The notes below the pieces were generated by a model that was not told the origin of the DNA, ran no database searches, and saw nothing but the letters and a program-made list of their open reading frames with translations. Both the position numbers and the translations under genes were made by a program. DNA of 32,954 nucleotides from Methylovulum psychrotolerans (GTDB lineage: Bacteria; Pseudomonadota; Gammaproteobacteria; Methylococcales; Methylomonadaceae): NCBI RefSeq assembly GCF_002923755.1, contig NZ_PGFZ01000001.1, positions 931,109-964,062 on the forward strand. Direction: 5' to 3'. Positions 9,501-32,954 of this stretch are shown in pieces (the stretch's first letter is position 1; every line of letters starts with the position of its first letter).

Positions 9501-9566
9501 TATAGTGGACCCATAAAAACAGACAATAATTTAAGATGGTGTCCATCATAAAACAGGTGGACGAAA

Positions 9567-9860
9567 ATGAGTGAGAAAAAGCGTAAATTGATGACCGGCG
9601 CACAAAAGGCGAAGGTGGCGTTGGAGGCGGTCAAAGGTACAAAGACGGCCAATGAGATAGCCCAAGAACACGGTGTCCATCCGACGCAAGTCGGCCTCTG
9701 GAAAAAAGCCTTGCTGGAGAATGCCGGGCAACTGTTTGAGACGAAGCGCGGCCCGAAGGCGGTTGACCCGCAAAGCGACCCCGAACGCCTGTACGCCAAG
9801 ATAGGACAGCTCAACATGGAGTTGGACTGGCTGAAAAAAAAGTCCGGGATCAACCCTTAA
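9567..9860 (+). CDS. IS3-family transposase OrfA (copy 1)
   Basis: This 97-residue protein has an N-terminal helix-turn-helix of the HTH_Tnp_1 type (MTGAQKAKVALEAVKG ... ANEIAQEHGVHPTQVGLWKK) that binds the terminal repeats, followed by a helical segment (YAKIGQLNMELDWLKKK) that probably mediates multimer formation. The last codons contain a run of eight A residues at 9834-9841, a likely slippery site where a -1 shift joins OrfA to OrfB. Residue 37 is valine here and alanine in copy 2. Confidence 0.92.
   Translation: MSEKKRKLMTGAQKAKVALEAVKGTKTANEIAQEHGVHPTQVGLWKKALLENAGQLFETKRGPKAVDPQSDPERLYAKIGQLNMELDWLKKKSGINP
9834..9841 (+). promoter_or_regulatory. Programmed -1 frameshift site (A8 run)
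   Basis: Eight consecutive A residues near the end of OrfA. OrfB lies in the -1 frame, open from this point, and lacks a good start codon of its own (its first candidate is TTG at 9899 without a ribosome-binding site). A -1 slip at A-AAA-AAG gives a continuous OrfAB transposase. The same run is present in copy 2. Confidence 0.75.
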
Positions 9861-10792
9861 GCCTGCGGCAAGCGTGGGTTGCCCCCAATGACGGGCAGTT
9901 GCCAGTAACAGCCCAATGCCGTTTGGCGGGCATCGCCCGGTCGACCGTGTATGCGGGTAAAGCGGAAAGGGTGGACGGGTTCGAACTGATGTTGCTGCGC
10001 TTGTTGGACGAGGAATACACCCGCCGCCCCTTTTACGGCAGCCGGAAAATGGTGGCTTGGCTACGCGCCGAAGGCCATTGCGTCAACCGCAAGCGCGTGC
10101 AGCGCCTGATGCACATCCTGGGCTTGGCAGGGATGGCACCCGGCCCCAACACCAGCAAAAGCCACCCGGCGCACGCGGTTTACCCGTATTTGCTCAGGGG
10201 CTTGGGCATTGTCCGCCCTAACCACGTTTGGAGTACGGACATAACCTATATCCGGCTGGCGCACGGTTTTGTCTACCTGGTGGCGGTCATCGACTGGTAC
10301 AGCCGTAAGGTTTTGGCTTGGGAAGTGTCGAACACGATGGATGTCGGCTTTTGCGTGGATTGCTTGGCAACTGCGCTCAGGCTCTACGGGATACCCGAAA
10401 TCTTCAACACCGACCAAGGGGCGCAGTTCACCAGCGACAAATGGATAGCCGTACTCAAGGACAACGGCATCACAATCAGCATGGACGGACGCGGCAGGGC
10501 ATTGGACAATATTTTTGTCGAACGGCTGTGGCGGAGCGTCAAGCATGAGGATGTTTATCTGAAAGGTTACGCCCATTTGCCGGAATTGCTATCAGGGCTG
10601 GCCGACTATTTTGTTTTCTACAACAGCGGACGTTACCATCAATCACTGGGCTATAAAACGCCCGATGAAGTCTATCGGACGGCGGTCGGCGGCGGGGCAA
10701 AAATAGCAGATCATTTTAGCGATAAACGAAATGCTTCAAACGGAGAAACGGGGCAGCGCCAATCCGCTGCAATGGCAATGACACTATCTTAA
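9842..10792 (+). CDS. IS3-family transposase OrfB, DDE integrase domain (copy 1)
   Basis: This is the catalytic part of the transposase, most likely made as an OrfAB fusion by -1 frameshifting. The region from the TTG at 9899 encodes 297 residues. It begins with a HTH_21-type segment (RPFYGSRKMVAWLR). The rve integrase core follows: first Asp in WSTDITYI, second Asp in FNTDQGAQFT and the Glu in NIFVERLWRSVKHE, with the 35-residue spacing typical of the family. The tail has YHQSLGYKTPDEVY. All catalytic residues are present, so the element looks active. The protein sequence is identical to that of copy 2. Confidence 0.93.
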   Translation, partial: VRDQPLSLRQAWVAPNDGQLPVTAQCRLAGIARSTVYAGKAERVDGFELMLLRLLDEEYTRRPFYGSRKMVAWLRAEGHCVNRKRVQRLMHILGLAGMAPGPNTSKSHPAHAVYPYLLRGLGIVRPNHVWSTDITYIRLAHGFVYLVAVIDWYSRKVLAWEVSNTMDVGFCVDCLATALRLYGIPEIFNTDQGAQFTSDKWIAVLKDNGITISMDGRGRALDNIFVERLWRSVKHEDVYLKGYAHLPELLSGLADYFVFYNSGRYHQSLGYKTPDEVYRTAVGGGAKIADHFSDKRNASNGETGQRQSAAMAMTLS

Positions 10793-10831
10793 ACTAGGCT
10801 AAATATTGTCTGGACAATGGGGGCCACTTAA

Positions 10832-21859: not shown

Positions 21860-22852
21860 TTATAAAACGCTAAACTGCCCAAGCAGTTGCTTGTAATCGT
21901 CAGCAATCGGATGGCCTGCCTCAGATTGCCCTAACCTATGCCTGTCCAGCAGTCCGTCAGCCGAAACTTGGTGTTCGGCTGACCATTGCTTAGGCCTAAC
22001 CAATTGATGCGGACGCACCTTACCATCAGTACCGAGGCAATGGCTACAAGACTGTAACGGCTCCGAACTGGTCAAATAACGGTACAGCTCTTCTACAAAG
22101 GCTGGTGAGTCGGTCAATTTGATGCCGTCTTGAGCCAGCCTTTCCATAGGCAGATGGCGTAGCTGCGGAATATAAATGCTTTGCGGACATTTATAAAAAT
22201 ACCCTTCATGGACGGAATGGCAACCCCAGACATGCGCCAGTTTACAGCTTTTATAAACCCGCCGCGCCAAAGCCTGATCCTCGTAACCGGCGGTGGCAAA
22301 AGTCGCCCGGAATTGGTCAAAATAATACACGCGCAAGCGCACCCCATATTTTATCGCCTGCTGTTTGGCCGCTGCCAGCACATTTTCGGGCAAGCGTGAA
22401 TCTGGATACACCGATATTTCTAACTCATTAATCAGCGTCCAAACGGCTTCCGGCATACGCGGCAATAACAGGCCGTTAGTTACTAACAGAATATAACCGC
22501 AGATGCCACTGCTGCGGATGGCTTGCAGTACCGCAGGCAAATCGGGGTGAAGCAAAGGTTCACCCCCTAACACTTTTACAAAACGGGGGCTATAGAATTT
22601 AGCCAGCAGTGAAAAATCCCGCAACACAGTAGCCGGATCAGCCACTTTCTTTTTCACACCCGGAGACGCGTGGTTACAATCCAAACAGGTCAGGTTACAA
22701 TGGTCAACAACGTTTAATTCACAGCCATTTTGTGGCTGTAGCTTGCCGTTGACTAAGGTGACAGATGATGTCGCGGACAGGCCAATTGTCGGGCCGGCAA
22801 CGGCATCAGGCCGGGCAAAGCGGGATATAAGCCGCTGCTTTATATTCAACAT
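21860..22852 (-). CDS. Radical SAM enzyme, operon-terminal gene
   Basis: This 330-residue protein has the canonical CxxxCxxC iron-sulfur motif CNLTCLDC at residues 52-59, a KVLGGEPLLHPDL motif for SAM binding and LLVTNGLLL. Additional cysteines in CKLAHVWGCHSVHEGYFYKC and CSHCLG suggest a second cluster or a twitch/SPASM-type region. It may modify a peptide, carbohydrate or other substrate of the HPr-kinase/PqqD operon. It is the last gene of that operon. The original upstream stop lay only 14 bases before its ATG; IS copy 2 now separates them, so expression may be lost or driven by IS transcription. Confidence 0.85.
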   Translation of the reverse strand: MLNIKQRLISRFARPDAVAGPTIGLSATSSVTLVNGKLQPQNGCELNVVDHCNLTCLDCNHASPGVKKKVADPATVLRDFSLLAKFYSPRFVKVLGGEPLLHPDLPAVLQAIRSSGICGYILLVTNGLLLPRMPEAVWTLINELEISVYPDSRLPENVLAAAKQQAIKYGVRLRVYYFDQFRATFATAGYEDQALARRVYKSCKLAHVWGCHSVHEGYFYKCPQSIYIPQLRHLPMERLAQDGIKLTDSPAFVEELYRYLTSSEPLQSCSHCLGTDGKVRPHQLVRPKQWSAEHQVSADGLLDRHRLGQSEAGHPIADDYKQLLGQFSVL

Positions 22853-22866
22853 AAGATTCTTTGCTT

Positions 22867-22903
22867 TTAGTCGCCGTTATTATTGGGTAAAACGGCGACA
22901 CGC
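22867..22903 (-). other. Residual 3' end of the HPr-kinase/GT2 gene beyond IS copy 2
   Basis: After removing the IS and one CGC duplication, the frame from LDRQR continues with VAVLPNNNGD and stops at TAA (22869-22867), 14 bases before the radical SAM ATG. This gives a 606-residue original protein. The bases are a non-coding remnant at present. Confidence 0.8.
22901..22903. repeat. Target-site duplication (CGC), left of IS copy 2
   Basis: It matches CGC at 24235-24237 on the other side of the element. Confidence 0.85.
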
Positions 22904-22942
22904 TTAAGTGGCCCCCATTGTCCAGACAATATTTAGCCTAGT

Positions 22943-23893
22943 TTAAGATAGTGTCATTGCCATTGCAGCGGATTGGCGCTGCCCCGTTTCTCCGTTTGAA
23001 GCATTTCGTTTATCGCTAAAATGATCTGCTATTTTTGCCCCGCCGCCGACCGCCGTCCGATAGACTTCATCGGGCGTTTTATAGCCCAGTGATTGATGGT
23101 AACGTCCGCTGTTGTAGAAAACAAAATAGTCGGCCAGCCCTGATAGCAATTCCGGCAAATGGGCGTAACCTTTCAGATAAACATCCTCATGCTTGACGCT
23201 CCGCCACAGCCGTTCGACAAAAATATTGTCCAATGCCCTGCCGCGTCCGTCCATGCTGATTGTGATGCCGTTGTCCTTGAGTACGGCTATCCATTTGTCG
23301 CTGGTGAACTGCGCCCCTTGGTCGGTGTTGAAGATTTCGGGTATCCCGTAGAGCCTGAGCGCAGTTGCCAAGCAATCCACGCAAAAGCCGACATCCATCG
23401 TGTTCGACACTTCCCAAGCCAAAACCTTACGGCTGTACCAGTCGATGACCGCCACCAGGTAGACAAAACCGTGCGCCAGCCGGATATAGGTTATGTCCGT
23501 ACTCCAAACGTGGTTAGGGCGGACAATGCCCAAGCCCCTGAGCAAATACGGGTAAACCGCGTGCGCCGGGTGGCTTTTGCTGGTGTTGGGGCCGGGTGCC
23601 ATCCCTGCCAAGCCCAGGATGTGCATCAGGCGCTGCACGCGCTTGCGGTTGACGCAATGGCCTTCGGCGCGTAGCCAAGCCACCATTTTCCGGCTGCCGT
23701 AAAAGGGGCGGCGGGTGTATTCCTCGTCCAACAAGCGCAGCAACATCAGTTCGAACCCGTCCACCCTTTCCGCTTTACCCGCATACACGGTCGACCGGGC
23801 GATGCCCGCCAAACGGCATTGGGCTGTTACTGGCAACTGCCCGTCATTGGGGGCAACCCACGCTTGCCGCAGGCTTAAGGGTTGATCCCGGAC
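22943..23893 (-). CDS. IS3-family transposase OrfB, DDE integrase domain (copy 2)
   Basis: Identical in protein sequence to OrfB of copy 1, with all three catalytic residues (WSTDIT, FNTDQG, FVERLW) intact. Normally produced as an OrfAB fusion after a -1 slip at the A8 run near 23894-23901. Without a slip the first candidate start is TTG at 23836. Confidence 0.93.
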   Translation of the reverse strand, partial: VRDQPLSLRQAWVAPNDGQLPVTAQCRLAGIARSTVYAGKAERVDGFELMLLRLLDEEYTRRPFYGSRKMVAWLRAEGHCVNRKRVQRLMHILGLAGMAPGPNTSKSHPAHAVYPYLLRGLGIVRPNHVWSTDITYIRLAHGFVYLVAVIDWYSRKVLAWEVSNTMDVGFCVDCLATALRLYGIPEIFNTDQGAQFTSDKWIAVLKDNGITISMDGRGRALDNIFVERLWRSVKHEDVYLKGYAHLPELLSGLADYFVFYNSGRYHQSLGYKTPDEVYRTAVGGGAKIADHFSDKRNASNGETGQRQSAAMAMTLS

Positions 23894-24168
23894 TTTTTTT
23901 TCAGCCAGTCCAACTCCATGTTGAGCTGTCCTATCTTGGCGTACAGGCGTTCGGGGTCGCTTTGCGGGTCAACCGCCTTCGGGCCGCGCTTCGTCTCAAA
24001 CAGTTGCCCGGCATTCTCCAGCAAGGCTTTTTTCCAGAGGCCGACTTGCGTCGGATGGGCACCGTGTTCTTGGGCTATCTCATTGGCCGTCTTTGTACCT
24101 TTGACCGCCTCCAACGCCACCTTCGCCTTTTGTGCGCCGGTCATCAATTTACGCTTTTTCTCACTCAT
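23875..24168 (-). CDS. IS3-family transposase OrfA (copy 2)
   Basis: 97-residue helix-turn-helix protein, identical to copy 1 OrfA except alanine instead of valine at residue 37. Overlaps OrfB and carries the same A8 frameshift run near its end. Confidence 0.92.
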   Translation of the reverse strand: MSEKKRKLMTGAQKAKVALEAVKGTKTANEIAQEHGAHPTQVGLWKKALLENAGQLFETKRGPKAVDPQSDPERLYAKIGQLNMELDWLKKKSGINP

Positions 24169-24218
24169 TTTCGTCCACCTGTTTTATGATGGACACCATC
24201 TTAAATTATTGTCTGTTT

Positions 24219-26021
24219 TTATGGGTCCACTATACGCTGCCTGTCCAAAGCTTTTTTAAAGACCCGCAAGGTATTCAGTTCGACTAGGGATTTGCCCGCT
24301 GTCATATTTTGCCCATGCCGACGCACATGCAGCGTCACCGCTTCGGGACGGGCAATGGCCAATGCACAGGCACTGGCGCGGTTAAACCAGTCGGTATCCT
24401 CGGCAAAACGCAACTCGCTATCAAACAAACCCACACGGGTAAAGGCGCTGCGCCGATATAAGCCCGCGCCAATATAAAAGCGGAATGCTTCGCCGGGATT
24501 ACCGACCATATCATAACCGTTGTGTTCAGCATTATGCACCAGCAATTGTGCCCGGCCATGGACAGCATCCAATGCCGGATCGTTAAGCAAAACTTCCGCC
24601 AGCATCAGCAAATTGCCTTCCGGCCACAGATCATCCACATCCAAAAAAGCGATAAAATCACCTGACGCATCCTTAATGCCGCGATTACGCGCCGCCGCCG
24701 CCCCAGCATTTTCCTGCCGGAAAAACCGGACATCCACGGGCAATTGCGCCACAACGGCTTCAATATCATCGGTAGAACCATCATCAACGACAATAATCTC
24801 CAAGGTCGGATAGTGTTGCGCCAAGACATTGGCTATCGCTTCAGGCAAAAAGCTGGCCCCGTTATAAACAGGGATAATGACGCTCAGCAAGGGCTTAGTA
24901 AATTCAACGGCAGAACTTTCCACAGCGGCCAACTTTGCGATGTCCACCGCACCCGTTTGCAACAAATGGCTGATTGCCGCCGGAACGGCACTGATGTCAC
25001 TGCCTAAAGCCATACCCAAACAAGGCACATTGTTCAGTAACGTATCGATAAATTCATAGGTTTTACGCCCGGCATAAGGCAATTGCGACAGCGTGGTGAA
25101 CGCAGCGGCACTGCGCAATGCCAATTTGGCTATAGGCTGGAAACGGGTTTCGGCAATACTGCCAAAATGCGGGGCAACAACCGTTTTTAGCGGCAAAGAC
25201 AGGCGGATTTGCCCCTGATAAGCCGGCCACAATTGCAAGACAGCTTTTTCCCTATCGAGATGGCGAGTATTGGTAAGCGATGCCGCCAAACCCGGAAACT
25301 GCCGCAACTGCTCAGGCACCAGCTTAGCGGTGGCATAAAGGCTGTAGACCCGTGGCTCCGGGTTCAGCCCGACCACCAGATAATCATCGGCAAGATAATG
25401 CAATCCGGCGGCCAAGCCTGCCAAAGCCGTTGTCGATTTGCCGACCCCACCCTTGCCGGTGATCAGCAACGCGCCATTCTCATCACCTAAGGCGGCGGCA
25501 TGTAACAACTGGTGGCCGCACTGCGCCATCCACCAATGGAATAAGGTGCGTAACGGCGAAGCATCGCACCAATAAGGTAAGGCCGCAGGGTCTTGTACCC
25601 AATAAATGGCATGGCTGCTGGTCAAATCCATCAGATTAACCGAACACTCAATCCAATGGAAAGCCGTACGGATACGCGGGCTGTTCATGCCCCAAATATC
25701 ACCACGATCGGTAAAACACTGTTGGGGAAACGGTGGCGGCGGCATTGCTATGTGCGTCGAAGTGCTGTCCCAAATATGAAACGTCATATCCGGCCCGCGT
25801 ATCGGCGTGACTTCCAAATGCGCCAAGGCCGCGCCAAAATGCCCCAACAAGGCTTCGCCTGCATAGACTAGGCGAATTAGCGTCCCGGCTAACTGCAAAT
25901 GGCGGATAACAACACCCGTCTGCGCCTCGGCACGCATGGCACAGTCCATAACTTGATCAAAAAATGCTATCTGGGCGGCTTCAGAAAAAGCCGGGGTATC
26001 GGAAAGGTGTGCGTGGTCCAT
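24219..26021 (-). CDS. HPr-kinase-like/GT2 glycosyltransferase fusion (3' end altered by IS copy 2)
   Basis: About 600 residues. N-terminal ~370 residues match the HPrK-related kinase family seen with PqqD proteins, including Walker A GKGGVGKST at 189-197 and ADDYLVV downstream. C-terminal ~220 residues form a GT-A/GT2 domain: SVIIPVYNG at ~380, VVDDGSTDD with the DD near 413, NAGAAAARNRG and FLDVDDLW, then ED-type DTDWFNRA and an RRHGQN tail shared with the two neighbouring GT2 proteins. The join of a kinase and a glycosyltransferase in one chain is unusual. The last residues (IVDP) come from the IS end; the native C-terminus was VAVLPNNNGD. Activity may survive, since only about ten residues are replaced. 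It starts 22 bases after the ABC gene stops. Confidence 0.85.
   Translation of the reverse strand: MDHAHLSDTPAFSEAAQIAFFDQVMDCAMRAEAQTGVVIRHLQLAGTLIRLVYAGEALLGHFGAALAHLEVTPIRGPDMTFHIWDSTSTHIAMPPPPFPQQCFTDRGDIWGMNSPRIRTAFHWIECSVNLMDLTSSHAIYWVQDPAALPYWCDASPLRTLFHWWMAQCGHQLLHAAALGDENGALLITGKGGVGKSTTALAGLAAGLHYLADDYLVVGLNPEPRVYSLYATAKLVPEQLRQFPGLAASLTNTRHLDREKAVLQLWPAYQGQIRLSLPLKTVVAPHFGSIAETRFQPIAKLALRSAAAFTTLSQLPYAGRKTYEFIDTLLNNVPCLGMALGSDISAVPAAISHLLQTGAVDIAKLAAVESSAVEFTKPLLSVIIPVYNGASFLPEAIANVLAQHYPTLEIIVVDDGSTDDIEAVVAQLPVDVRFFRQENAGAAAARNRGIKDASGDFIAFLDVDDLWPEGNLLMLAEVLLNDPALDAVHGRAQLLVHNAEHNGYDMVGNPGEAFRFYIGAGLYRRSAFTRVGLFDSELRFAEDTDWFNRASACALAIARPEAVTLHVRRHGQNMTAGKSLVELNTLRVFKKALDRQRIVDP
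24235..24237. repeat. Target-site duplication (CGC), right of IS copy 2
   Basis: It matches CGC at 22901-22903. Confidence 0.85.
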
Positions 26022-26043
26022 GAAGATAATTGCTTAAGCTGAG

Positions 26044-27777
26044 TCAAAGAGGGTTTGTTTTTTGCACCCGCTCCAAACGGCCTTGGTGCAAACGGTATAC
26101 CTGATCGGCGCAGGCAACCACGTCAGGATCATGGCTGACGATAAGAATCGTCGGATGGTAAGGCGCGTTGACCAGCCCTGCCATTAATTGGGCAATCGCC
26201 CCGACATCCAGATGATTAGTGGGTTCATCGAGAATCAACAGCGCAGGCTCGGCCAATAAAGCGCTGGCAATGCCCAGCCGCTGCCGCTCGCCGCCTGACA
26301 ATAACATGCCGCCTTCGCCAATTTCGGTCGCATACCCATCCGGTAACGCATTAATGAACGTCTCCGCCAACGCCAACCGGGCAGCGGCGGCGACTTGCGC
26401 CATGCTGGCCTCAGGTCGGCCATAACACAGGTTTTCCAATATCGTGCCGGAAAAAATCCCCGGTTGCTGCATCACCACCCCCATAGCCTTCCGTAAACCC
26501 GCCATATCAAGGTCATCGTAAGCAACGCCGCTGGCATAGAGCTGACCCTGCTGGGGCTTACAAAAACCGACCAGCAAATTGAGCAGCGTGGTTTTACCTG
26601 TACCGTTCGCACCGACAATCGCAATTTTACTACCCGCCGGAATCTCCAAATCCACAGACCGCAACACCGTATGGCTACCGTAAGCAAAGGTCACGCCCCG
26701 CAAAGACAAACTGCCGTCAAACGCCAGCAGACGCTGGCCTTGATACGGCTCTATTTCGCCTTCATGCAGCACACCGTATAGCTTTATTAAGGCCTCATTG
26801 CCCGTGATCAGTTCGGGTAAACCGCCGATCACATTATCGGCTTGACCGTTCAGCAAACCGGCGGCGACATAGAACGTCAGCAAATCGCCTAAACTCATTG
26901 TGCCTTGGGCGACGCTTACCCCGCCCGCCACCATAATCATAATGCCCGCGAATCCGGTCAAATTACGCTGTATTTGTCCATGCCACGCGTAACTCATCGC
27001 CATACGCTTACCCGTGCCGCTCAGTTCGTCAAGACATTGCCGCTGACTCTCCTGCTCTTGGCCGACACAGGCTTTCAGGCGGATCATATCCATATACCTC
27101 AAAGCAAAACGCGTCCGCTTACTGAACAGCTCAAATGCCGACTGAAACAACTGCACATCCCGTTTCACGGACAGGCCGACCCGCCGCGAAGCCCACAGCA
27201 AGACTGGCAAGACCAGCACCGCCAACGCCACCAGTTGCCAATTCAATATCAGCAATACACACAGCAACACCAACCCGGTCGCCACCGCCGGCAACATACC
27301 CGATAACAAGCGGTTGCTCAGGTTATCAAAACGCTCACTGTCCAAAACAATACGGCTATGTAACTGGTCAATATCGGCATGGCTAATAGTCTCCCGCGAC
27401 AAAACTGCCAGCCTGGCCAACACATCACGCCGCAATTGGCCGACGACCTCTTTAATAATCCCCAGGATAAAGTGCCGCAACCACAAGCCGACGGCACTGT
27501 GCAGCAAACGCATGACCACCACGCCCAAACCTAGCCATAGCAAGCCGGACACATTACCCTGCGGCAAAGCGTGGTCGAACAACTGCCGGATCATAAACAG
27601 AATAGGTATGACCATTAACGATTGCAAAGCAGCGGCCAAAGCGTAGGCCAGCAACTGCCGCCAACAATGCCGATAGTAATGGCGGAACAAGCCTAGCGCA
27701 TTCTTATCGAACAGATTAAAGCGCTGCCAGTGTTGATGCAGCCATATCCGCACGGCACTCAAACTAGCCGCCGCCAT
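26044..27777 (-). CDS. ABC exporter (fused membrane and ATPase domains)
   Basis: From ATG 27777 this is a 577-residue half-transporter: six membrane helices (~40-320), then an ABC ATPase with Walker A GANGTGKTT, signature LSGGERQRLG, Walker B LLILDEP followed by TNHLD, and the H-loop IVSHD. The layout matches type-I exporters of peptides, lipids or glycans. It lacks an N-terminal C39 peptidase, so it does not cleave a leader peptide. The frame is open further upstream to 27828 with a poor start codon; ATG 27777 overlaps the 3' end of the nucleotidyltransferase gene by 19 bases. It probably exports or flips the product of the operon. Confidence 0.87.
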   Translation of the reverse strand: MAAASLSAVRIWLHQHWQRFNLFDKNALGLFRHYYRHCWRQLLAYALAAALQSLMVIPILFMIRQLFDHALPQGNVSGLLWLGLGVVVMRLLHSAVGLWLRHFILGIIKEVVGQLRRDVLARLAVLSRETISHADIDQLHSRIVLDSERFDNLSNRLLSGMLPAVATGLVLLCVLLILNWQLVALAVLVLPVLLWASRRVGLSVKRDVQLFQSAFELFSKRTRFALRYMDMIRLKACVGQEQESQRQCLDELSGTGKRMAMSYAWHGQIQRNLTGFAGIMIMVAGGVSVAQGTMSLGDLLTFYVAAGLLNGQADNVIGGLPELITGNEALIKLYGVLHEGEIEPYQGQRLLAFDGSLSLRGVTFAYGSHTVLRSVDLEIPAGSKIAIVGANGTGKTTLLNLLVGFCKPQQGQLYASGVAYDDLDMAGLRKAMGVVMQQPGIFSGTILENLCYGRPEASMAQVAAAARLALAETFINALPDGYATEIGEGGMLLSGGERQRLGIASALLAEPALLILDEPTNHLDVGAIAQLMAGLVNAPYHPTILIVSHDPDVVACADQVYRLHQGRLERVQKTNPL

Positions 27778-28901
27778 AGCCCGGCCAATACCGTGGGCAG
27801 GATTTCCAACCGTCCCCGCAAGCGCCAACGATAGCGCAGATAATGGGAATAGCCATTCAAAAACGGCAACAGGCTATCCGTATCCGCCAGACCGCAATAT
27901 TCGGCAAAAATCACCCATTGTTTCGTCAAAGGATGTTCATACCAACGCCCCCGTTCGCTGAGAATGACCCCATTTTCGATACGTTCGCGCCAACTACGCC
28001 GCAGAGGATTATGTAAACGCCCAACCACGGCTTCGGGCAGTTCCAAGGCGAAATGTTCCGACAAATAACCTAAGCCCAACGCCAAACGCTGGCTCAGACG
28101 CTGGGCATCAGCAAAAGCGAACAAACGCTGCCAATCCACATCGCCCCCGCGTTGCTTTAAAATCATCAATGCGTCGGGAATCCAGCGTATCGGCGTTTCC
28201 TCATTCCACCGCATACCATGTAAAATCGTATGCGCCAGCAAAGCGGTCGGCGCCAATTGCCAAACCATGACCCCTTGAAAATCCAAAGTCTCGACATCTT
28301 CCCAAAACCAAGTATCGGCGGCGGCGTTCAGTCCGTCCCGCGAAATATGAAAATGCACATCCAAACGCTGATTAAGGTTACGCACACAGCCGATGGCATG
28401 TTGATAACGCAGATCATCCGCTGAAGGGTCCGGCCCCGTATCCCAGCCTATTTCCCGCAATAACGCCAAAGCCTTCGGTAACTGCCCGATACGGACAGCC
28501 AGGTCAATATCGGACATAGGGCGCAAAGCGTAATTGCCATAATACGTTAACGCCAAGGGTGCGCCTTTCAGCAACAGCAAATCCACTCCGCCTTGCTGAA
28601 GATGCTGCACTAACGGCAACACATCAAAAAATAACTGCTGGTTTTCACACCAAAACCGTCGGTACACCCCTTTTAACCTGCCCATCAAAGGGTCTTTTGC
28701 CCCTAGCCGCAGTAAATTATGATAAACCAACGGCAACAACCGCAATACCGGATAACCCAGTTCAGCATCCAAATCAATGCCCGCCCGCCAATCACAAAAT
28801 GCCCGGATGGCCTTATCATCAGCAAGCAACGCGGCTTGCAGCAAATGCAATTGTTCCGCAGAAGGCCATAAATGCACAGAATGTCGCAGTTGCACTGACA
28901 T
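27759..28901 (-). CDS. Nucleotidyltransferase-family protein (NTP_transf_5-like)
   Basis: This 380-residue protein has a nucleotidyltransferase core: LLLKGAPLALTYYGN followed by PMSDIDLAVR, with the paired aspartates D131 and D133 that bind metal. The N- and C-terminal helical regions fit the NTP_transf_5 family, often found next to PqqD and HPr-kinase-like proteins in peptide or exopolysaccharide clusters. Its substrate is unknown. The ATG directly abuts the stop of the preceding GT2 gene (TAA-ATG), which means tight translational coupling, and its 3' end overlaps the ABC gene. Confidence 0.82.
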   Translation of the reverse strand: MSVQLRHSVHLWPSAEQLHLLQAALLADDKAIRAFCDWRAGIDLDAELGYPVLRLLPLVYHNLLRLGAKDPLMGRLKGVYRRFWCENQQLFFDVLPLVQHLQQGGVDLLLLKGAPLALTYYGNYALRPMSDIDLAVRIGQLPKALALLREIGWDTGPDPSADDLRYQHAIGCVRNLNQRLDVHFHISRDGLNAAADTWFWEDVETLDFQGVMVWQLAPTALLAHTILHGMRWNEETPIRWIPDALMILKQRGGDVDWQRLFAFADAQRLSQRLALGLGYLSEHFALELPEAVVGRLHNPLRRSWRERIENGVILSERGRWYEHPLTKQWVIFAEYCGLADTDSLLPFLNGYSHYLRYRWRLRGRLEILPTVLAGLWRRLV

Positions 28902-29618
28902 TTAAGCCTCCGTTGAGGCTTGCAGACCGGGATCGGCCCGCCGCCTAGCCATAGCCGCATGTAAGATATGCAGATAATCGCGTTGTAAGCACTGGGTTTT
29001 CCTGACCGTATTCACCGTATGGATACGTCGGCGCAACACTACCGAACCGACTTGCCCAAAGGCAATATGCCGCTCCTGCGCCCGCGCAATCCAGTCCATC
29101 GTTTCTCCTACTTGCCACTCGCCATTAAATCCGCCTACCCGTGTAAACACTGACTGCCGCACCAAGAGTCCCCCCGCTAAACGCCCGGATTGGATACCCG
29201 GCAATTCCGCCAATTGCTGTTGCTCGGCAACGGATAACTCCGGGCTGACAAACGCCTCAATCAACCCGAACACCCCGTCCAAAGCGGGCGTGTCGGCAAA
29301 TGCCGCTAGCCGGGCAGACAAACTGTCCGTCGGCCAGTAATCATCGGCATCCAGAAAAGCAATAAAGTCACCCTGCGCCTGTTGTACCCCTGCGTTACGG
29401 CTGGCAGCGATACCCTGATGGCTATGGCGGATACAGGTGACGATACCGCCATAACCCTCAGCGATCTCGGCACTGGTATCGGTCGAGCCATCATCAATCA
29501 CCAACACTTCATAAGGCAATACTTGCTGCGCCAATAAACTGTCCAAAGCTTCAGGCAAATAAGCGGCGGTGTTGTAACACGGCACAATCACACTGACACG
29601 GGGTGGTTTATTCATCAA
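28902..29618 (-). CDS. GT2-family glycosyltransferase (second in operon)
   Basis: 238 residues with the GT-A fold: SVIVPCYNTAAYL, VIDDGSTDTS, RNAGVQQAQGDFIAFLDADDYW and the later GETMDWIARA region, ending with LRRRIHTVN. Soluble, without membrane helices. It overlaps the preceding GT2 gene by 11 bases and abuts the nucleotidyltransferase gene. It likely transfers a sugar during synthesis of the product made by this operon. Confidence 0.9.
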   Translation of the reverse strand: MMNKPPRVSVIVPCYNTAAYLPEALDSLLAQQVLPYEVLVIDDGSTDTSAEIAEGYGGIVTCIRHSHQGIAASRNAGVQQAQGDFIAFLDADDYWPTDSLSARLAAFADTPALDGVFGLIEAFVSPELSVAEQQQLAELPGIQSGRLAGGLLVRQSVFTRVGGFNGEWQVGETMDWIARAQERHIAFGQVGSVVLRRRIHTVNTVRKTQCLQRDYLHILHAAMARRRADPGLQASTEA

Positions 29619-30348
29619 TAGCCTTTCCTGTCCGTTTACGCTGAATAGAACGGCGTAAGGCGCGTAATAGCAAATGGTTAATATCAGGGTTCAGTAATGA
29701 ACTGTTCCGGTCATGGACACGTTTGCGCACCAGCACCTCCGGCAACATCATCGGCGTAAATCCCGCATCTAACGTCCGCGCAAACCAATCACTGTCTTCC
29801 CCTACCGCAAAACTGGCATCAAAACCGCCTACGCTCATAAACAGCTCCCGCCGCGCCACCAACGCCTCCATAATCCAACCGGGCCGCGCCGCCACCAATA
29901 GCTCCTGCCGAAAACCTTCCGGCACGGCACTACCCGAATGCAGAAAATGCTCGACCAAACCTAAGCTATAGGCAAATTGCGGATGAGCTTGCAAGGCAGC
30001 AAGCTGACGATCCAATTTATGGGGCATCCACTCATCATCATGGGAGATAAAGGCGATAAAGTCACCCTGCGCTTGGGCAATGCCTTCGTTATAGGCATTG
30101 GGTATGCCGTGGGAGATTTGCGGGCAGATCCGCACTTTCGGAAATTGCTGGGCGATACTGACCGTCGCATCGTCAGAACCGCCATCAATAACCAGTATCT
30201 CAAGGGGTTGAAGGTCAGACAGATAGATGCTGCGTAAGGCATCAGCGATAAAATCAGCCCCATTACGGACAATTAAAATGACGCTGACGGCGGGTGTGTT
30301 CTCGCTCTCAGAGACAGAAGCAGGCTCTGCTAATGGGACACTGGACAT
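29608..30348 (-). CDS. GT2-family glycosyltransferase (first in operon)
   Basis: 246 residues, GT-A fold: SVILIVRNGADFI, VIDGGSDDATV, YNEGIAQAQGDFIAFISHDDEW and a later GEDSDWFARTLD region, ending with VRKRVHDRNSS. It starts 14 bases after the PqqD-like gene and overlaps the next GT2 gene by 11 bases. It is clearly paralogous to the next GT2 and to the GT2 part of the fusion, all three sharing the R-x-H-x-x-N tail. Confidence 0.9.
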   Translation of the reverse strand: MSSVPLAEPASVSESENTPAVSVILIVRNGADFIADALRSIYLSDLQPLEILVIDGGSDDATVSIAQQFPKVRICPQISHGIPNAYNEGIAQAQGDFIAFISHDDEWMPHKLDRQLAALQAHPQFAYSLGLVEHFLHSGSAVPEGFRQELLVAARPGWIMEALVARRELFMSVGGFDASFAVGEDSDWFARTLDAGFTPMMLPEVLVRKRVHDRNSSLLNPDINHLLLRALRRSIQRKRTGKAIDE

Positions 30349-30362
30349 GATGAAGTTAAGGC

Positions 30363-30824
30363 TTACTCAGCGGGGCGGGAAGGTTTGGCGACAGGCCAAC
30401 CCTGCTCGGCAATGTCGTGGATAGGATCTAACAACAGCAAATCCTGCATATCCGAAAAAACCTCCAATACCGGAGGCGAGGTAAACTTATCAAGCAAGGG
30501 CTGCCCCATGATCTGGTCAGCAGCCCAAGTATTCGGCCCTTGGGCCACCATAGCCTGTGACACCAGATCATTATCAAGCAAACTTTTGATAAACAAAAGA
30601 CTTTGCCCAATCATTGACGGTATGTCGCCATTATAGACATCAGTCAGCAACGCGAGCATTTCATCTTGGCTACAGCCCTTTTCCAGTGCCGACCACAGAA
30701 AAACCCCCGTATCGCGCACACTGTAATAATTACCTGATTTAAGATTCATGATGACCAGTTCGCCATCAATTAACTCACTGACAATATAAGGGCTGTTAAC
30801 CTTGAATATACCTTTCTGTTCCAT
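30363..30824 (-). CDS. PqqD-family protein (putative peptide-binding RRE)
   Basis: This 153-residue protein carries a PqqD-like domain over residues ~10-90: a VSELIDGELVIMNLKSGNYY segment, DTGVFLWSALEKG and a following helical part. PqqD domains bind leader peptides or act as adaptors for radical SAM and kinase enzymes. The C-terminal ~55 residues are an extra region of unknown role. It is the first gene of the operon and has a ~570-base regulatory region upstream. Known HPr-kinase-related systems of proteobacteria include a PqqD family member, so this fits the rest of the operon. Confidence 0.85.
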   Translation of the reverse strand: MEQKGIFKVNSPYIVSELIDGELVIMNLKSGNYYSVRDTGVFLWSALEKGCSQDEMLALLTDVYNGDIPSMIGQSLLFIKSLLDNDLVSQAMVAQGPNTWAADQIMGQPLLDKFTSPPVLEVFSDMQDLLLLDPIHDIAEQGWPVAKPSRPAE

Positions 30825-32351: not shown

Positions 32352-32759
32352 CTAATTGACAATCAATTTATATAGCTTAATTGGCAAGTGCTTTTGATAA
32401 TTATAAAAATCTTTATCGGTAGTATAAATTTGCATTTGCAAGCGTACTGCAACGGCACAAATTAAAAAATCAACAGATGAACCTTGAACACCATTTTTTC
32501 GGCAAATATTAGCAAACATTGCCGCTTGAATATAATCCGCGTCTATCACCCGAACATTTTCAAAGCCGCTCAATTTATTTTTTAACGCTTCAAACTTATT
32601 AAGGTCACTATATCCCGACAAGATTTCTTGCCGTATAGCCCCTATAAGAGCAACACGCCGCTCTATAATTAGCCTCTTAAAGCTTTCTATATAGTTTTCA
32701 AAATCAGCATTATTAGACCTAAAAGCATAAGACCAAATAGGCGTATCAACCAATACCAT
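32352..32759 (-). CDS. vapC: VapC-type PIN-domain toxin
   Basis: This 135-residue PIN ribonuclease has conserved acidic residues in MVLVDTPIWS (first Asp), AIRQEILSG (Glu), SSVDFLICAVAV (Asp) and YTTDKDF (Asp), forming the metal site. ATG 32759 overlaps the antitoxin stop by one base (TGATG). Such toxins cut tRNA or rRNA when the antitoxin decays. The gene appears intact. Confidence 0.9.
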   Translation of the reverse strand: MVLVDTPIWSYAFRSNNADFENYIESFKRLIIERRVALIGAIRQEILSGYSDLNKFEALKNKLSGFENVRVIDADYIQAAMFANICRKNGVQGSSVDFLICAVAVRLQMQIYTTDKDFYNYQKHLPIKLYKLIVN

Positions 32760-32954
32760 CAAGGCTTACGCCCCTGTTTATAATCATAATCAGGATCTGG
32801 ATCAAATTTACCAAATGATTCGATGACCTCAAGCTGCTTACGGCTATTGATAAATTCACGCAAAGCCGCATTGACCGTTTCTTTTTTGCTTTTAAGCCCG
32901 CTGAACTGTAAGGCTTCGTTAAGCAATTCGCTATCTATGACAAGATGGGTATTC
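32759..32954 (-). CDS. vapB: VapB-family antitoxin (5' end beyond the window)
   Basis: 64 codons are visible, ending at TGA 32761-32759. The sequence HLVIDSELLNEALQFSGL followed by SKKETVNAALREFI matches the VapB (PF09957-like) ribbon-helix-helix domain. The C-terminal tail (FGKFDPDPDYDY) is acidic and should wrap around the PIN toxin. Only a few N-terminal residues are missing. The one-base overlap with vapC makes translational coupling likely. Confidence 0.88.
   Translation of the reverse strand, partial: NTHLVIDSELLNEALQFSGLKSKKETVNAALREFINSRKQLEVIESFGKFDPDPDYDYKQGRKP

Follow-up and report, generated by a model that had tools for sequence, protein, structure and literature searches.

The window analysed here, a stretch of 32,954 nt from Methylovulum psychrotolerans (contig NZ_PGFZ01000001.1, positions 931,109 to 964,062; position 1 is its first letter), contains within 21860-30824 an operon headed by a PqqD-family RRE (recognition element of ribosomally synthesised and post-translationally modified peptides), fused at its C-terminus to a tail that begins like the leader of a lasso peptide and ends in a hyperconserved segment. 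With confidence that falls just short of even, we read the operon as a cassette of the lineage of lasso peptides and linear polyphosphorylated peptides (LPP), in which the tail would be a captive, non-consumed leader acting as a scaffold for the tailoring enzymes. The precursor would be fused to, and frozen on, its own recognition protein within a peptide-tailoring cassette that adds phosphate and sugar, and this may be why no separate precursor gene is seen.

The tail of the PqqD-family adaptor

The adaptor gene (30363..30824, minus strand, as are all genes and elements with coordinates in this operon) encodes 153 aa and matches Pfam PqqD at 1e-8. When its product is aligned with that of a relative of the same genus (G050), the linker varies and the C-terminal end is nearly identical. 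The tail comprises residues 114-153 (30366..30485), a leader-like segment followed by DMQDLLLLDPIHDIAEQGWP, of which D125-P144 (30452-30393) are hyperconserved; both features were recognised from alignments, a DNA pattern and profiles. The consensus is [FY]xxPxLxxYxDMQDLLLLDPIHDVDExGWP, and the architecture in most relatives is a PqqD domain, a variable linker, [FY]xxPxLxxY and then D[ML]xxLhhhDP[IV]H[DE]...GWP.

A degenerate DNA pattern for L-L-D-P-I-H-D/N ... G-W-P, run against a species-level genome collection, matched 78 contig stretches, and in all 78 the tail lies 3-24 residues from the end of the open reading frame (ORF). A PqqD-domain profile made without the tail, from 47 proteins drawn from these and their relatives, matches 77 of the 78 ORFs, or 88 of 89 when all tail loci are taken together. 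One pattern locus (L093) is the G050 locus (L035) over again and was dropped from the partner, phylum, tree and residue counts; the near-copies L091 and L097 were retained. This leaves 77 pattern loci, which bear 16 phylum names between them (three loci have none), and single assignments may be wrong because nearly all of these are metagenome-assembled genomes. Eleven tails were found without the pattern: that of the window, that of G050 by synteny, and nine by profile. A whole-protein profile (A6) recovers recognisable tails in four of 369 genomes of the class and six of 398 of the phylum, our own genome included in both, and its other matches end, by their coordinates, at or near the end of the PqqD domain. 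A single plasmid record out of 72,556, from Crinalium, has the tail, with PqqD, nucleotidyltransferase and HPrK genes side by side.

Outside the residues fixed by the pattern, and counting from the aromatic residue as position 0, the 77 loci have an aromatic at 0 in 65, Pro at 3 in 71, Tyr or Phe at 8 in 75, Asp at 10 in 75 and Met or Leu at 11 in all 77. The residues D18, P19, H21 and GWP are kept in each of the 11 pattern-independent tails, partly since these were recognised as tails by profile. None of the literature searched, outside which most subscription journals lie, prints LLLLDPIHDV, DMQDLLLLDPIH or LLDPIHDVDE, nor do its accessible portions describe a leader-like tail on an RRE; a 2025 RRE survey puts at 21% the PF05402 proteins that are oversize and have no second Pfam domain, and its accessible portion says nothing of a tail (PMC12710340).

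Over its first 17 residues the tail aligns, in register and without gaps, with lasso-type leaders. Against the leader encoded at locus L173, the mean ungapped BLOSUM62 score of 85 tails (L035/L093 counted twice) is 23.0, compared to -13.5 for shuffled sequences (standard deviation 8.4), and the means against other leaders are 25.5 (L179), 20.5 (L178), 15.7 (L185), 15.0 (L184) and 12.4 (L180). Over the whole protein, the tail anchor also gives the best-scoring register in 79 of the 85 for L173, 84 for L179, 74 for L178, 75 for L185, 71 for L184 and 56 for L180.

The domain that precedes the tail points the same way, its nearest solved relatives being lasso and LPP leader-binding domains: the profile of 47 relatives matches TbiB1 at 8.9e-19, PbaB1 at 3.1e-13, TfuB1 at 3.4e-8 and LppB at 6.5e-6. 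Among these nearest solved relatives, TbiB1 and TfuB1 (PDB 5v1u/5v1v, 6jx3) differ in that they have 91 and 99 residues, are matched only by the domain part of the profile, and have their leader as a separate peptide. Two positions of the leader pocket are mostly kept, F78 in 35 of 47 and L87 in 43 of 47; they were equated by eye with PbaB1 F83 and L92, which are named in the account of LPP (LppA/K/B/S/D/N) by Popov et al. 2026 (PMC13381572; here and below, the accessible portion of that paper).

LPP are cleaved after Thr(-1), and their sole phosphorylated residue is Ser3, which lies 18 residues after the leader Tyr (PMC13381572); lasso leaders have a conserved Thr at the penultimate position, according to the available parts of the sources. 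The Thr of both systems corresponds to tail position 15, which is Thr in none of 88 counted tails (L058 left out) and hydrophobic in all 88. LPP Ser3 corresponds to position 18, which is Asp in 88 of 88, 77 of them by construction and the other 11 of 11 otherwise. Relative to LPP, Thr(-1) is Leu and Ser3 is Asp, and of the LPP motif YxxPxVLxHQxIxFETxxS the tail matches only Y/F-P-L (PMC13381572). The tail likewise differs from a lasso precursor in being leader-like without the penultimate Thr.

A conserved gene set and its surroundings

Downstream of the adaptor lie two glycosyltransferase family 2 (GT2) genes (29608..30348, 246 aa, Pfam PF00535 1.3e-22; 28902..29618, 238 aa, PF00535 4.4e-34), an NTP_transf_5 nucleotidyltransferase gene (27759..28901, 380 aa, PF14907 1.7e-37), an MsbA-like ABC exporter gene (26044..27777, Pfam and NCBIfam, the MsbA model being best at 245 bits against a cut-off of 602), and a gene for an HPrK-like kinase fused to a GT2 domain (24219..26021, 600 aa, Pfam and NCBIfam). 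The close packing described in the original prediction is borne out for these six genes, with successive distances from PqqD to HPrK-GT2 of 14, -11, 0, -19 and 22 nt; the ATG at 27777 is the better start of the exporter gene, giving a 19-nt overlap with the nucleotidyltransferase gene that is the same in G050. The R-x-H-x-x-N tail reported for the three GT2 domains can be read directly in all three, and is common, occurring anywhere in the protein in 68 of 95 GT2 matches from the first 80 loci and 89 of 131 from 89 loci.

The nucleotidyltransferase has the K-G, R and D-x-D motif, whose letters are conserved in 47-49 of 55 aligned relatives (a crude regular expression matched 33 of 58). The kinase gives only a weak NCBIfam match (27.4 bits) and has a P-loop, which is kept in 58 of 61 kinases of tail loci. 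Its fusion to GT2 had been thought unusual; this is not so, as the fusion occurs in 13 other distinct loci (ORFs matching both profiles in 14 of 80 loci, G050 counted twice).

The identical six-gene order is found in G050, with identities of 49% (PqqD), 67% and 63% (the two GT2s in order), 67% (nucleotidyltransferase), 70% (ABC exporter) and 69% (HPrK-GT2). Conservation of order at 49-70% identity argues that the set is more than a chance assembly and, together with the recurrence of the partners near tail genes, agrees with the original prediction that the six genes belong together. Among 201 family genomes, our own being one, 22 have relatives of the nucleotidyltransferase (E<=1e-5), a close one being found only in G050 (67%), and a first scan of the genome contig collection with this protein gave no match.

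The profiles used to count partner genes took the window genes as seeds and were refined by iteration over the first 80 loci, and are thus not independent of these. Within 9 kb of the tail gene in 89 loci we found HPrK in 68, GT2 in 69, the nucleotidyltransferase in 54 and the ABC exporter in 38; where at least 3.5 kb of sequence follows the tail gene (50 loci) the figures are 46, 48, 37 and 27, or 46, 48, 32 and 25 on the same strand only. The next same-strand gene in the 89 loci is HPrK in 43, the nucleotidyltransferase in 19, GT2 in 16, ABC in four, another gene in four and none in one, with two more loci being ABC+HPrK calls. Among 70 of 107 other same-strand neighbours, scanned with Pfam, glycosyltransferase families GT1/GT4 lead with 13 (among the 25 of 94 families listed). 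Single tail-type cassettes adjoin genes for an ATP sulfurylase/APS (adenylylsulfate) kinase (L169, 4585-6219), a phosphodiesterase/nucleotide pyrophosphatase (L074, 337-1707) and a sulfotransferase (L171, 4035-4925). Our own genome (G000) also holds a second HPrK-like and NTP_transf_5 pair, of another type and without the tail (L038, G000:C3:71951-72583), and in G050 the 400 bases that precede the PqqD gene contain three inverted repeats (L035, 8756-9126), with arms of 37, 33 and 18 nt that are 86-97% complementary.

A seventh gene had been counted in the packed operon, a radical SAM gene (21860..22852, 330 aa, CxxxCxxC, Pfam 26.6 bits against a cut-off of 29.5). It cannot be kept there on the grounds of packing: 1,366 nt separate it from the kinase-GT2 stop codon, and in between is an IS3-family insertion sequence (22904..24234, Pfam and NCBIfam), with orfA at 24168-23875 and orfB at 23836-22943 and a 3-bp duplication, GCG, on both sides. 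The insertion supplies the last residues and the stop codon of the kinase-GT2 gene. Only four residues follow DRQR in the window compared to 16 in the G050 relative, which is why we regard the GT2 domain itself as complete. About 50 nt of flank separate the element's right end from the start of the radical SAM gene, and the radical SAM gene may therefore have directly followed the kinase-GT2 gene before the insertion.

There is otherwise little support for the radical SAM protein as a part of the cassette: no such gene adjoins the cassette in G050, and the protein has no match in 200 other genomes of the family at E<=1e-15 and one 29% match besides itself among 20 genomes of the genus (E<=1e-10). 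Among 84 tail loci, two have other radical SAM ORFs, of which one passes the Pfam cut-off and one falls short of it. The genome contains seven more near-full-length copies of the IS3 element, at 94-100% identity, including one at 9501-10831 of the window (L191) with CCT on both sides, and copies lie also in G000:C56, C23, C12 and C20. Elsewhere in the window there are a Group II intron domain match (44-291, Rfam RF02005, 122.7 bits) and two overlapping small ORFs which by eye resemble a VapBC-type toxin-antitoxin pair (32352-32953).

Relation to LPP, lasso and HPr-rel-A systems

The system closest to the cassette is LPP, whose core set consists of an RRE, an HprK-like kinase, an NTP transferase, an MsbA-like exporter and a signal peptidase (PMC13381572). 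Shared with it are a discrete RRE of the lasso/LPP kind, the kinase, the NTP transferase (likened by name, not as PF14907) and the MsbA-like transporter, the lack of a cyclase, an RRE recognition of the YxxP type and surroundings rich in glycosyltransferases. The differences are that the cassette has GT2 genes and an HPrK-GT2 fusion added, that neither an SpI peptidase nor a free precursor was found, the leader-like peptide being fused to the RRE, and that LPP are reported, in the same accessible portion, as restricted to Bacillota, a label borne by one tail locus. Phosphorylated lasso peptides, paeninodin and pseudomycoidin, are also made with an RRE, an HPr kinase homologue, a nucleotidyltransferase and an exporter, and have leaders of the [Y/W]xxPx[L/V] kind (PMC8498205, accessible portion); the cassette shares all four and the kind of leader, and differs in that no macrolactam synthase, B2-type family or lasso core is seen.

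The models of the HPr-rel-A system (TIGR04352, TIGR04353) pair, by their names, a PqqD-type protein with an HPrK-like kinase, and NTP_transf_5 is also part of that system. The window kinase reaches 27.4 bits of a required 200, and TIGR04353 gives no PqqD match at E<=0.01.

The absences were examined within stated limits. There is no SpI-like signal peptidase between 21860 and 30824, the region to which that search was confined, and neither a signal peptidase nor a B2-type family among 45 of the 83 small neighbours of tail loci (25 of the 29 families listed). Pfam finds no macrolactam synthase in the window operon, and a four-sequence Asn synthase profile finds none in 84 tail loci except in a separate tail-less system in L171. 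With no cyclase and no B2 found, we reject identity with a lasso cluster. A strict regular expression for leader-like small ORFs in 83 tail loci, which is a weak test, returned 21 tails and a further 30 ORFs with nothing in common by eye, and thus no convincing free precursor. Judged by these genes, the set is that of LPP without the peptidase, or of a phosphorylated lasso peptide without the cyclase, and the system would be a variant of this kind rather than a member. The original prediction of a modified peptide or glycan was therefore in the right area, as the LPP core set is shared, and went astray over the unusual fusion and the packing of the radical SAM gene; for the missing precursor, it had overlooked the candidate at the C-terminus of PqqD.

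A quick kinase tree with long branches, from which pieces under 220 aa (tail loci) or 150 aa (others) were excluded, separates 61 tail loci from 15 tail-less ones by a single branch (SH-aLRT 97, Shimodaira-Hasegawa-like approximate likelihood ratio test), with two degenerate loci falling among the tail kinases. The kinases of the tail-less loci L173, L174, L040 and L046 are not in the tree because of these length cut-offs. Asn synthase accompanies tail-less PqqD in L171, L173 and L176, is present in L040 where no PqqD was recognised, and is replaced in L174 by a sulfotransferase/Asp-hydroxylase protein. The small ORF of L173 (5670-5843) encodes the lasso-type leader used above and matches two NCBIfam lasso models below cut-off (4.1e-5 and 0.011). 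L228 and L232 share a contig (G679:C45), so that a tail-type cassette and a lasso-leader locus stand together as LPP and paeninodin do in Bacilli.

A proposed captive leader and its alternatives

If the tail is a captive leader, its leader-like half would occupy the cleft in which PqqD binds peptides, either in its own molecule or in a neighbouring one, and the adaptor would therefore be permanently loaded. The hyperconserved half would serve as a fixed docking element for the tailoring enzymes rather than as a product that diversifies. We read the tail as a non-consumed scaffold or pseudosubstrate because the Thr and Ser of LPP are here Leu and Asp. The scaffold would gather HPrK, NTP_transf_5 and the GT2s, and the surface phosphoglycan or glycopeptide made by them would be handed to the ABC exporter. 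The second half is conserved even where the RRE-binding half has decayed, which speaks for docking to a partner that would be the same everywhere.

Several observations weigh against this reading. The invariance of D18, P19, H21 and GWP in the pattern loci is by construction, and in the pattern-independent tails Pro is at 3 in six of 11 and the aromatic in register in five of 11, the window tail itself having the aromatic one residue further off (FxxPxV). The leader motif being patchy, constraint is stronger on the last half than on the half that binds the RRE, and a pure captive leader does not require this. The NCBIfam lasso-leader models match none of three tails tried, and the nucleotidyltransferase and ABC genes are not nearby in many tail loci. 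L170 and L172 have a PqqD with a leader-like end and lack the DPIH..GWP segment; L172 keeps Asp-Pro at 18-19, and L170 (8695-9069), which HPrK and GT2 adjoin, has a shortened tail ending YSVPLLRVFKDLQEYVIGSVS, the last letters being IGSVS with Ser at 18. Finally, the ORF that bears the tail motif in L084 (1701-1952) is 83 aa long, and none of the frames of its 3.5-kb stretch encodes a recognisable PqqD domain; it may be a divergent PqqD or a free tail.

We also consider, as a rather unlikely reading, that the cassettes form a widespread class of peptide-tailoring systems with precursor and recognition element in one protein, whose frozen, hyperconserved 'core' would be the acceptor or primer for a phosphoglycan exported to the cell surface; the acceptor would be either the His or the Asp that stands in place of the phospho-Ser.

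Taken on its own, the proposal that the tail is the substrate, with kinase, nucleotidyltransferase and GT2s building a phosphoglycan on the conserved Asp or His and PqqD carrying it as peptide primer to the exporter, appears unlikely to us. It would account for the LPP phospho-acceptor position falling on the Asp common to the 88 counted tails (77 by construction), for active-site motifs that are mostly kept in kinase and nucleotidyltransferase, and for the Ser at the acceptor position of L170, which is however a single case. The hyperconserved stretch has no conserved Ser, Thr or Tyr (any at positions 11-24 in six of 11 and 17 of 77), and LppK phosphorylated neither Thr nor Tyr in place of its Ser (PMC13381572).

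It is improbable, in our view, that this is an LPP- or lasso-like system with a free precursor encoded elsewhere, the tail being an autoinhibitory plug displaced by the true leader. The RREs of LPP and lasso systems do bind free YxxP-type leaders (PMC13381572), L173 has a free precursor near a related tail-less PqqD, and we have put the likelihood slightly higher because L084 may be a free tail. On the other side, the strict search of the 83 tail loci recovered only tails and unrelated-looking ORFs, no second tail-like sequence was found in our own genome, and a plug does not need its last half conserved over phyla. A polysaccharide biosynthesis operon in which PqqD and tail merely tether glycan-assembly enzymes, without any peptide, is more doubtful still. 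In its favour, GT1/GT4 genes are the most frequent other neighbours scanned, and some loci have sulfotransferase and similar genes. Against it, the RRE domain belongs to a leader-binding family, and LPP and paeninodin clusters also occupy capsule loci (PMC13381572), so that glycan-related neighbours do not discriminate.

Whichever role it has, a motif of about 20 residues that stays nearly the same between Methylovulum and Bacteroidota, Chloroflexota, Acidobacteriota and Cyanobacteriota, and that is carried by a peptide-binding adaptor whose gene usually lies close to those of the same enzymes, points to a function that has been conserved. The fused tail may explain why searches for precursors around such PqqD genes have failed, and it offers a simple handle for purifying and testing the machinery. 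If the captive-leader reading is true, a diversifying pathway for peptide natural products would here have been turned into a fixed cellular machine.

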